A program made the translations under genes and the position numbers. The notes beneath the pieces are model-generated. The model did not search any database. It had not been told where the DNA came from and was given only the letters and a program-made list of their open reading frames with translations. 61,795 nt of DNA from Methanosaeta sp. PtaB.Bin039 (GTDB lineage: Archaea; Halobacteriota; Methanosarcinia; Methanotrichales; Methanotrichaceae), in NCBI GenBank assembly GCA_002067795.1, contig MVQI01000034.1, forward strand, positions 1-61,795. The letters run 5' to 3'. The stretch's first letter is position 1, and the number at the start of each line of letters is the position of its first letter. Positions 19,506-33,381 of the stretch are shown one piece after another.

Positions 19506-20687
19506 ATGCCCCGAAAAGCCCCTTTTCACGTCATGATCATCCCTACCTTAGGCTGCCCCTCGAATTGCAGCTACTGCTGGAGTTCGGACGAGAAATCGCC
19601 GATCATGGATACCCAAACTGTGGACCAGACCGTGGAGTGGCTCAGAGAATTCCGTAAGGACCCTGTCACCATCACATTCCACGGAGGCGAGCCTCTCATG
19701 GCAGGTCTGAAGTTCTACCGTCACGCACTGCCTGTCCTGGCAGATGGGCTGCGCCACATCGGGGTCTCCTTCGCCATGCAGAGCAACATGTGGTTGCTCT
19801 CGCCTGAGCTGGCGGAAATACTGGCCGAGTACAAGATACCCATCGGCTCAAGCCTTGACGGCCCCCAGGAGGTCAACGACAGCCAGCGTGGCCGGGGCTA
19901 CTATGAGAAGACGATGCGAGGATACAGGACTGCTAAGGAGCACGGGCTTTCGGTTCGCTTCATATGCACATTTACATCCCAGTCGGTCCGCTTCAAGGAG
20001 GATATATTCAACTTCTTCATGGAAAACGGCTTCGTCATGAAGCTGCATCCTGCTTTGCCCTCCCTGCGAGGTAGCGATCCGGATAGTTGGTCACTTGCTC
20101 CGCAGGACTACGGTGAGCTATTGGTCTATCTGCTGGACCGCTATCTGGAGAAGATCAATGAGGTGGAGATCATGAACATAAACGACCTGTGCCGGGGCGT
20201 TCTCACCAGCCGCGGCACGGTTTGCACCTTTGCCGATTGCATGGACAGCACCTATGCGGTCGGCCCTGAAGGCAGCATTTATCCCTGCTACCGGTTCGTC
20301 GGCATGCCCCAGTTTGTTATGGGTAACGTCTCAGATAGGCCGTCCCTGGATGACCTGAAAGCATCAGCAGCCTGGAAGCGGATGCAGGAGTTCAAGGAGT
20401 ACGTCAACAAGGAGTGCAAGAGCTGCCGGCACATTCGCTACTGTCGGGGTGGCTGCCCGTATAACGCCATTGTGCCGACAAGCGGGGAGATTGCCGGAGT
20501 CGATCCCCACTGTCTGGCTTACAGGCGTATATTCGACGAGATCAACAGCCGCTTCAATAAGGAGATGTTCGGCGGGATGAGACGTGGGGCGTTTCCCGAG
20601 CCTTATTCCGATGGCAAGCCAAGCATGATGGCGCTCATGCGAAAGATCTCCTCCGATGCAGTCCAAGGGGAGATGAACCCGGTTTAG
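19506..20687 (+). CDS. Radical SAM/SPASM peptide-modifying enzyme (Mhun_1560-like)
   Basis: 393 residues. The radical SAM cluster motif is TLGCPSNCSYCWS (Cys17, 21, 24), followed by GGEPLM and the TIM-barrel core. The C-terminal SPASM domain has CTFADCMDSTYAVGPEGSIYPCYRF and CKSCRHIRYCRGGCPYN...HCLAYR, which bind two extra Fe-S clusters. SPASM enzymes such as anSME, PqqE and AlbA act on Cys, Ser or other residues of peptides or proteins. It resembles the methanogen group around Mhun_1560, whose substrate is unknown to me. The frame is closed by TGA at 19500, so ATG 19506 is the earliest start. A TATA-like ACTATTAAT (about 19471-19480) sits at a near-leaderless distance. Two secreted proteins follow on the same strand. 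Confidence 0.87.
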   Translation: MPRKAPFHVMIIPTLGCPSNCSYCWSSDEKSPIMDTQTVDQTVEWLREFRKDPVTITFHGGEPLMAGLKFYRHALPVLADGLRHIGVSFAMQSNMWLLSPELAEILAEYKIPIGSSLDGPQEVNDSQRGRGYYEKTMRGYRTAKEHGLSVRFICTFTSQSVRFKEDIFNFFMENGFVMKLHPALPSLRGSDPDSWSLAPQDYGELLVYLLDRYLEKINEVEIMNINDLCRGVLTSRGTVCTFADCMDSTYAVGPEGSIYPCYRFVGMPQFVMGNVSDRPSLDDLKASAAWKRMQEFKEYVNKECKSCRHIRYCRGGCPYNAIVPTSGEIAGVDPHCLAYRRIFDEINSRFNKEMFGGMRRGAFPEPYSDGKPSMMALMRKISSDAVQGEMNPV

Positions 20688-30739: not shown

Positions 30740-31336
30740 TCATATAGGGCCAGCCTCTGCCGGGACAAGCCCCTGCTTTATGCTGGCCATCACAGGAGTC
30801 CCCGTGGGCTTCCATAGGCTGGATAGGTCCACGGCATCGGGCTTGGACATTGAACCATCTGCCTGGCTTCCTTCCCATGCGTAGCCCTCAGTGCTGTTGC
30901 TCGTACGCCTGGCAACGAAAGGCCCCTTATCCCCGCCGAACTGATAGGTTCTGATAAAGGTGCCTCCAAGGCTGTCGTCATTGACAGTTCCCTGAAGAAG
31001 AGCCGATACGATCGAATCGTTAAACAGATAGGCGAGGGATAAGACCATCTCGGAAGGACCGACCGTTCCAGCTGCCCGGCCTTCCCATTCCCCGCCCTCG
31101 GCCCTAACCTGTCCACGGATCTCACGGCCGGACTGCAGAAGCGCCATTGTGGCCATGCTGCCGTTGAGGTTCAGGCTCCACACGCCCTCCACCGGGGCAA
31201 TGCCAGCCTCCTCCAATGCCTTAATGCTGGACGAGAACTCCACCCTGACGTCCGGCCCCTCCTGGCCAGCCGCCAGGCCCAGCAGACAGATAAGCAGGAG
31301 ACCTGCCATGGCAATAGCCAATACGCTGCGCATCAT
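30740..31336 (-). CDS. Secreted protein of unknown function (198 aa)
   Basis: Unrecognised. A clear signal peptide (MMRSVLAIAMAGLLLICLLGLAAG) precedes a soluble domain with alternating strands such as VWSLNLNGSMATMALLQSGREIRGQVR and LLQGTVNDDSLGGTFIRTYQF, which suggests a lipocalin-like beta-barrel. That is inferred from strand pattern only. GGTGAT lies 4 nt before the first ATG. It sits 64 nt upstream of the ATP-grasp ligase on the same strand and is divergent from the Cys-rich protein gene. No cysteine is left after the signal peptide, so there is no link to that protein's chemistry. Confidence 0.75.
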   Translation of the reverse strand: MMRSVLAIAMAGLLLICLLGLAAGQEGPDVRVEFSSSIKALEEAGIAPVEGVWSLNLNGSMATMALLQSGREIRGQVRAEGGEWEGRAAGTVGPSEMVLSLAYLFNDSIVSALLQGTVNDDSLGGTFIRTYQFGGDKGPFVARRTSNSTEGYAWEGSQADGSMSKPDAVDLSSLWKPTGTPVMASIKQGLVPAEAGPI

Positions 31337-31518
31337 CGATCACCAGCACTCCACCATGGTCGTCTGAGGGCATACTTAAGCTCTCCTTTGGCAACCGTCC
31401 TGTATCTGGCGCCATAATCGAATATAACTGGCCTCTCAATCTTCCGCTTTTGACCAACCGCGGTCATCATCCGCCGAACTTCATTCGTCTATTTTTGAAG
31501 TTAATTTCAACAATTGTC

Positions 31519-31527
31519 TATAAATAG
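31519..31527 (+). promoter_or_regulatory. TATA box of the Cys-rich repeat protein
   Basis: TATAAATAG, one of the best TATA matches in the window, 65 nt before the ATG at 31592. The predicted transcript start is near 31548. The ATG at 31514 lies upstream of that point and can be dismissed. Confidence 0.7.
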
Positions 31528-31591
31528 GTGCAGGCTGCAATTCCGCTCCTTGGAAAGGTCGATTGCAATCTGCCTGTCCGGAGAGTCAACC

Positions 31592-32209
31592 ATGAGACTG
31601 TTAATCTCCACGACAATAGCCATTATCATGCTGGCGGCACTGGGATTCGCCTGCCATGCAGCGACGGTATCAGAGCCGAGCAGCTCAGAAGACGCAGCTG
31701 AAGGGGAGATCCAATCACCTGACAGGACCTGTCCCCTCCTCAGCGGCTCCGGATCGGAGCGCAATTGCTCAAGGAATTGTCTGTATTCAGAATGCTGCGC
31801 CGGCCTCAACATCTCCGAATCGAAGAACGCCTCTAAGGACGCCTGCCCTAATGCAGCCTGCTTTACCGCCCCAAACACCACTTGGCCTTACAACACCAGC
31901 GCATGTCCGCATGCAGGTTGCTGCACTTATCCAAACGGATCGGGACAGAAAAATGTCACCTTGGGCTCATGCCCGTACGCTGCATGCTGCGCCGACCAGA
32001 GCACCCCGGAATCGGAGAACGCTAGCATCAGCTCGTGTCCCTGCACGGCATGCTGCGCTTATCCAGCCGGCGCCGCACCGAACCGCGGATACAGCTGCCC
32101 CACCCAGCAAATCATAGGAGGCGCTGGCTTTCCCTCTGACACGACATCGGACTCCCAGGATCTGATCGGCACCCTAGGTGAGGCAGAACCCAACTACATC
32201 TGTTGCTGA
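31592..32209 (+). CDS. Secreted cysteine-rich repeat protein (CPxAxCC repeats)
   Basis: Unrecognised, 205 residues. The signal peptide MRLLISTTIAIIMLAALGFACHA is followed by an acidic/Ser-rich spacer and five imperfect repeats of about 25 residues, each centred on a Cys cluster: CLYSECC, CPNAACF, CPHAGCC, CPYAACC and CPCTACC. They are separated by N-glycosylation-like linkers (NISESKNAS, TTWPYNTSA, NGSGQKNVT, STPESENAS). It ends PNYICC. About 20 Cys in 180 residues suits disulfides, metal binding or Cys modification. GGAGAG lies 7 nt before ATG 31592. Its neighbours give no pathway. Confidence 0.78.
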   Translation: MRLLISTTIAIIMLAALGFACHAATVSEPSSSEDAAEGEIQSPDRTCPLLSGSGSERNCSRNCLYSECCAGLNISESKNASKDACPNAACFTAPNTTWPYNTSACPHAGCCTYPNGSGQKNVTLGSCPYAACCADQSTPESENASISSCPCTACCAYPAGAAPNRGYSCPTQQIIGGAGFPSDTTSDSQDLIGTLGEAEPNYICC

Positions 32210-32357
32210 TATATTCATCTTCCCGGCTGTCGATCCGGCCGATTCCCGGGGTACGAAATCCCCGGCCAAAAGTCCCTGCCGCAGAGGCACCACGCAGGAT
32301 TCTTTTTCTCATTTTTCAACCTCCGTTGGCAGACGTTATTTTTCCGTAATCGACCAG

Positions 32358-32366
32358 TATTTATAT
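32358..32366 (+). promoter_or_regulatory. TATA box of mch
   Basis: TATTTATAT, predicting a transcript start near 32388, just before the AGGTGA ribosome-binding site (32389-32394) and 16 nt before the ATG at 32404. Confidence 0.6.
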
Positions 32367-32403
32367 TCAGTCTCCATCTCTGCCTCACAGGTGAATGGGC
32401 TTG

Positions 32404-33381
32404 ATGGGCATCAATGAGCTGGGCTTCGAGGTATTTGAGGAGATGATGGACCTTGCCGATGACCTGATGGTGGAGGTCATCGAGCTGGATAACGGCGCGG
32501 TTGTGGTGGACGCAGGGGTCAAGGCGCAGGGAGGCCTGTGGGCCGGCGTATATCTAAGTCGCATCTGTATGGCCGATCTTGCAGACATCCAGATCTGCGC
32601 ATGCCCGGTTGGAGACCTTGTCCTCCCTGGGGTGGAGGTGACCACCGATCACCCTGCGGTCTCCTGCATGGGATCCCAGTGCGCAATGTGGCAGATCAAG
32701 GTCGACAAGTACTTTGGCATGGGAAGCGGACCGGCACGGGCCCTGGCCCGCAAGACCAAGGAATGCTACGAGAGGATCGGCATGGAGGAGTTCTCCGAGG
32801 TTGGCGCCCTGGTCCTGGAGTCCTCCCGTATCCCCGATGTGGCCGTGACCAATCAAATAGCTGAGAAGTGCGCCATAGATCCTGGAGATCTGAGGGTGGC
32901 AGTTGCCCCCACCGACTCGCTGGCAGGCATGGTCCAGGTATCGGCCCGGGTGGTTGAGACCGGGCTGCACAAGCTGTTCACAATGGGCTTCGACATAAAC
33001 ACAATCAAAAGTGGTTGGGGCCAAGCACCAATCGCCCCGATCGTGGGAGACGCGACGATGTGCATGGGCGCCTCCAACGATGCCATAATCTACGGCGGAG
33101 ATACGTATTACACCCTTGATCACCCATCACCCGACGATCTGATGCCAGTCTTGGAGAGCATGCCCTCATGCTCGTCACGCGATTACGGGATGCCCTTCTA
33201 CCAGACGTTTAAGGCTGCTGGATTCGACTTCTTCAAGGTTGACCACAACGTCTTCGCCCCGGCCCGTGTGGTCGTCAACGAGTTGAAGTCCCGCCGCACC
33301 ATTGTAAGCGGCAGGCTTAATCCGCAGGTTCTCATGAGTTCGTTTGGGGTGGAGATGCTTGACAACTGCAAACCAAGATGA
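32404..33381 (+). CDS. mch: Methenyltetrahydromethanopterin cyclohydrolase
   Basis: Mch interconverts N5-formyl- and methenyl-H4MPT (H4SPT) in the C1 branch of methanogenesis. 325 residues with the family features MGINELGFEVFEEMMD, VKAQGGLWAGVYLSRICM, ACPVGDL, CMGSQCAMWQI and FFKVDHNVFAPA. AGGTGA (32389-32394) ends 9 nt before ATG 32404, which is preferred over ATG 32395 that directly abuts it. Marker 14 follows after 49 nt on the same strand. In an acetate-splitting methanogen it would serve methyl oxidation or biosynthesis, which is inference. Confidence 0.97.
   Translation: MGINELGFEVFEEMMDLADDLMVEVIELDNGAVVVDAGVKAQGGLWAGVYLSRICMADLADIQICACPVGDLVLPGVEVTTDHPAVSCMGSQCAMWQIKVDKYFGMGSGPARALARKTKECYERIGMEEFSEVGALVLESSRIPDVAVTNQIAEKCAIDPGDLRVAVAPTDSLAGMVQVSARVVETGLHKLFTMGFDINTIKSGWGQAPIAPIVGDATMCMGASNDAIIYGGDTYYTLDHPSPDDLMPVLESMPSCSSRDYGMPFYQTFKAAGFDFFKVDHNVFAPARVVVNELKSRRTIVSGRLNPQVLMSSFGVEMLDNCKPR

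Follow-up and report, generated by a model that had tools for sequence, protein, structure and literature searches.

Sheath proteins and known cysteine-rich proteins

Among acetate-using methane producers, Methanothrix-type archaea are a major group. Their sheaths are unusually tough, and few accessory components of these sheaths have, to our knowledge, been identified. Two other kinds of protein also offer points of comparison. Metallothioneins are cytoplasmic, rich in C-x-C and C-x-x-C, and have few or no aromatic residues, while CPxCG zinc-finger proteins carry CX2C pairs. According to two published studies, relatives of the family considered here, the Methanotrichaceae, live in sheaths whose hoops are held to be linked by disulfides, Methanospirillum sheaths need a reducing agent to dissolve, and about 20% of the Methanospirillum sheath consists of phenol-soluble polypeptides that aid rigidity (PMC11576556, PMC6242892).

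The protein examined here, encoded in the window (the whole 61.8-kb stretch of DNA that was analysed), resembles each of these in part. Sheath (SH) proteins and the phenol-soluble sheath polypeptides are likewise exported, by sheathed methanogens for which hoop disulfides have been proposed, but the SH proteins differ in that their core is amyloid beta and their cysteines are few. High Cys content is shared with metallothioneins, whereas the protein has CX4CC motifs, a leader, N-x-S/T sequons and ten aromatics. The classic metallothionein pattern (C-x-C or C-x-x-C, no aromatics, no export signal) was considered and does not fit the protein, given the CX4CC motifs, the aromatics and the leader. 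Archaeal CPxCG zinc-finger proteins (e.g. Brz, PMC2253796) are similarly small and have Cys-Pro motifs, from which CX4CC and the leader set our protein apart. Within the literature titles, abstracts and passages that were searched, such Methanothrix proteins were not found described.

A probable exported protein with five Cys repeats

The locus and the other features discussed below lie at the following positions of the window.

19506-20687, plus strand: TIGR04083-family peptide-modifying radical SAM/SPASM enzyme
30740-31336, minus strand: divergent gene for an exported 198-aa protein; the Cys ORF sits between this gene and mch
31518-31526, plus strand: archaeal TATA box CTATAAATA, an exact match to the consensus
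31580-31585, plus strand: Shine-Dalgarno sequence GGAGAG, with the ATG 6 nt further on
31592-32209, plus strand: ORF of 205 aa for the Cys-repeat protein, predicted to be exported (ATG start at 31592, stop at 32207-32209)
31592-31660, plus strand: hydrophobic leader, residues 1-23, as read from the sequence
31763-31825, plus strand: repeat 1, NCSRNCLYSECCAGLNISESK
31826-31891, plus strand: repeat 2, NASKDACPNAACFTAPNTTWPY
31892-31951, plus strand: repeat 3, NTSACPHAGCCTYPNGSGQK
31952-32017, plus strand: repeat 4, NVTLGSCPYAACCADQSTPESE
32018-32083, plus strand: repeat 5, NASISSCPCTACCAYPAGAAPN
32201-32206, plus strand: C-terminal Cys-Cys
32301-32317, plus strand: T-rich stretch 3' of the Cys gene, a putative termination signal
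32358-32365, plus strand: separate TATA-like box of mch
32395-33381, plus strand: mch (methenyl-H4MPT cyclohydrolase, PF02289), the anchor of a conserved slot

An earlier note on this DNA had described the TATA box, the leader, five named motifs, the terminal Cys-Cys and the N-x-S/T sequons, and all of these are present in the sequence at the coordinates it gave. Its CxxxCC spacing was a miscount, as in C-PxAx-CC the first Cys is separated from the Cys pair by four residues, which makes the spacing CX4CC. The five motifs are, in order, CLYSECC, CPNAACF, CPHAGCC, CPYAACC and CPCTACC. Their CX4C cores start at residues 63, 85, 105, 127 and 149 (spacing 22, 20, 22 and 22) within a repeat unit of ~22 residues, N-x-S/T-x(1-3)-C-P-x-A-x-C-C-x(n), and the second motif is without the last Cys. 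Ahead of all five motifs, a sequon begins 4-6 residues before the first Cys, and the protein has eight sequons in total. With the cut assumed after residue 23, the acidic mature chain (pI about 4.2) has 20 Cys in about 182 residues (11% Cys) and ten aromatics. When this mature sequence was shuffled 20,000 times, a procedure that takes no account of tandem duplication, its four CX4CC, five sequon-plus-CX4C and four CPx[AT]xC occurrences were never reached.

Across the conserved core columns of the five motifs, differences at codon positions 1, 2 and 3 number 7, 8 and 24, respectively. Most differences fall at third codon positions, as would be the case if it is the protein and not the DNA that is conserved, and this fits a translated and constrained protein. 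Tandem Repeats Finder detected no DNA-level tandem repeat, and the repeat units have therefore diverged. The AlphaFold model (mean pLDDT 34.5), examined also for the two-sheet amyloid-like beta core of SH proteins, offers no confident structure or fold.

The leader is likely a Sec signal peptide with cleavage near A20-C21 or A23-A24, from which we infer export; support for an exported architecture is good. The description of an exported, multi-Cys, sequon-bearing protein in the earlier note thus stands. Two loci of the STT3/AglB-type family score above the cut-off in the genome. The eight sequons and an oligosaccharyltransferase are both present, which suggests that the protein is probably N-glycosylated.

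Expression signals accompany the ORF. The sequence TATAAATA is found once within the window, and the annotated frame has the best synonymous codon score of the six, at a level below that of most neighbouring genes. The T-rich stretch likely serves as the transcription termination signal. Together with the TATA-like box that mch has of its own, this points to a Cys gene that is probably monocistronic and transcribed apart from mch.

Searches of Pfam with E values allowed up to 1, of NCBIfam with a limit of 0.1 and of PDB with a limit of 10 gave no match to the protein. The sole PHROGs match (phrog_17969, E 0.14, insignificant) covers residues 6-24 and is confined to the hydrophobic leader, so it is not counted as homology. 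Protein searches returned no sequence homologue in 60 relatives, the genome contigs or viral contigs, and in the protein's own genome no paralogue was found by protein search, by pattern or by the profiles of the two families called A2 and A4 below. When a five-repeat profile was run against 238 genomes of the class, the Cys-repeat gene itself was the only convincing match; three further matches extend over 10-13 positions with E values of 0.002-0.006. The proposal that this is a Cys-rich domain without known equivalent is borne out by these searches. The search for the repeat in other methanogens, a check that the earlier note proposed, found no convincing counterpart in the 238 genomes. Conservation of the frame among relatives, whose absence the earlier note said would count against its reading, fails for sequence everywhere searched and holds for position and architecture. 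In sequence the protein stands alone, whereas its architecture places it in a positional class.

The slot upstream of mch

The survey covered 40 Methanotrichaceae loci and, at each, as much as 6 kb of the DNA upstream of mch. At ten loci, an exported-looking, Cys-rich and sequon-rich small ORF lies directly upstream of mch on the mch strand. These ORFs encode the Cys-repeat protein, one protein each in G006 and G010, and seven proteins of A2, a single alignable family of 74-98 aa from Methanothrix-type genomes. Together they form four sequence groups that are mutually unalignable. When membership was fixed as a position directly upstream of mch, the mch strand, a leader, Cys richness and three or more sequons, there were 10 matches in 35.3 kb of slot DNA and none in 169 kb of adjoining DNA, in 48 kb of other loci of the same genome, elsewhere in the window or in 279 kb surrounding mch in other families. 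This contrast describes the loci and is no blind test, as the criteria were fixed after the first examples had been seen. The Cys-repeat protein falls within these positional criteria.

The other slot proteins (A2, G006 and G010/Ch14) are like the Cys-repeat protein in position, strand, leader and a mature part rich in Cys and sequons, and the G006 protein has CX4CC motifs too. They differ in being 74-168 aa long, unalignable with it beyond chance and without the 22-residue CPxAxCC repeat. Similarity of the Cys-repeat protein to the G006 and G010 proteins is near chance, not clearly above that of shuffles, and so we claim kinship by position and architecture only. The same two features are the basis for any common function, as slot proteins of different genera cannot be aligned beyond chance. 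Two slot proteins that were scanned (L074 and L089) received no Pfam or NCBIfam family name.

In a tree of mch, the loci with a Cys-rich slot protein are found in two parts of the family. Exported Cys-rich proteins concentrate in the slot upstream of mch, which makes it a hot spot, a finding new in this analysis. The occurrence of such differing proteins at one chromosomal spot points to a fast-evolving cell-surface component. In G015, G024 and G068, the slot holds exported sequon-rich proteins that are nearly without Cys. Relatives of the divergent 198-aa protein, which has no Pfam or NCBIfam match, are encoded upstream of mch in G007, G010, G033, G035 and G064, and G010 retains this gene along with its slot Cys protein. 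In L040 and L054, from genomes of genus g9, about 0.7 kb separates mch from an upstream gene whose product has a Gly-Cys-rich stretch.

This positional family of exported Cys-rich, putative glycoproteins provides named and testable candidates for sheath components. At the mch slot the architecture persists while the sequence turns over, and such cases escape homology searches.

Possible roles of the Cys motifs

We tentatively favour a glycoprotein that is exported by the Sec route to the sheath or the cell-surface matrix, with Cys motifs that cross-link or bind metal. Removal of the leader on Sec export would leave the acidic chain of about 182 residues, and AglB glycans on the sequon ahead of each CX4CC would hold it in an extended form, keep it in solution and protect it from proteases. 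Attachment points would then be provided by the five CX4CC motifs, at their regular intervals, and by the terminal CC. Cross-links at these points, most likely disulfides and otherwise shared metal thiolates, could tie the protein to sheath protein, to the matrix or to itself. We infer this surface location and Cys chemistry largely by analogy, as the sheath disulfides, the need for reducing agent and the phenol-soluble fraction of related archaea favour a cross-linking glycoprotein of the surface or sheath. Cys counts are odd in several slot proteins (19, 13, 11 and 9), as intermolecular bonds would allow. Counting against the cross-link, the disulfides of purified sheaths could have been formed by aerobic handling. 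In addition, VKOR, a common disulfide-forming enzyme, was detected in none of 50 family genomes although positive controls were detected, a result that makes disulfide formation by an enzyme less likely and leaves room for metal binding.

Of the rival readings, metal binding is the strongest, one we regard as somewhat unlikely. An extracellular metallothionein-like protein would bind soft metals (Zn, Cu, Ni, Fe) in its Cys clusters, so as to store or detoxify them outside the cell or to form a metal-loaded matrix. An anaerobic sulfidic habitat disfavours disulfides, and this, the 11% Cys of the mature chain and the family-wide lack of VKOR all speak for such a protein, as does the second family, A4 (up to 16 Cys in ~90-105 aa), which adjoins a Cys-domain winged-helix protein that may sense metal or redox state. 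However, the mature chain carries its ten aromatics, a C-x-C core is absent except for one CPC, and N-glycan sites flank every Cys cluster. Co-occurrence with metal transport genes, which had been proposed earlier as a check, was not seen, as the examined neighbours include none.

A broader role that we think unlikely is that the slot encodes an undescribed and rapidly diversifying kind of glycoprotein, extracellular and built of Cys repeats, which supplies the sheath or surface with nodes of metal thiolate or disulfide. Such nodes might, for example, bind metal ions or support extracellular electron uptake. It is quite improbable, in our judgment, that the protein is a rapidly evolving secreted peptide with an antimicrobial, toxin-like or recognition role in conflicts with viruses or competing archaea. 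Small exported Cys-rich proteins that share one slot and diverge greatly in sequence between genera would suit such a peptide, but the repeat protein is long and acidic with many sequons, no immunity or export cassette was found among the examined neighbours, and viral contigs hold no relative in a search sensitive to close relatives only.

The earlier note had also raised Cys modification, and we consider it very unlikely that the protein is the substrate of a radical SAM peptide maturase acting in a RiPP-like manner. The TIGR04083-family enzyme of the window might be a candidate maturase, as it scores 659 bits and has no obvious small Cys-rich precursor-type partner ORF beside it. Yet this gene, the nearest peptide-modifying radical SAM gene found, lies 11 kb off with several unrelated genes intervening, and being unlinked it makes a RiPP-type role only a lead. 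Moreover, NCBIfam precursor families gave no match, and sequons flanking the Cys motifs better suit export and glycosylation. That the ORF is untranslated or a decaying orphan, as its codon bias below most neighbours and the lack of any similar sequence among 60 relatives and 238 genomes of the class might suggest, is highly improbable given the TATA box, the Shine-Dalgarno sequence, the 22-residue periodicity, the third-position bias among repeats and the positional family.

The A2 profile also reached A4, a dispersed family of about 86-105 aa with 13-16 Cys and a similar leader, which is present in several Methanothrix-type genomes (up to six matches in G003) and whose genes are often near the cysteinyl-tRNA synthetase gene (cysS). 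Beside A4 genes in L229-L231, L235, L239, L241 and L242 is a gene whose product, of ~195 aa, has a hydrophobic N-terminus, a CxC...CC...CxC segment and a C-terminal winged helix, which in L230 gives a weak HTH_24 match (21.7 bits, just below the cut-off). This neighbour is possibly a membrane-anchored metal or redox sensor. Matches in L229 are only to fragments of a radical SAM gene, and such a gene adjoins the A4 Cys-rich genes in L236, L241 and L242 (1936-3012, minus strand, in the last).
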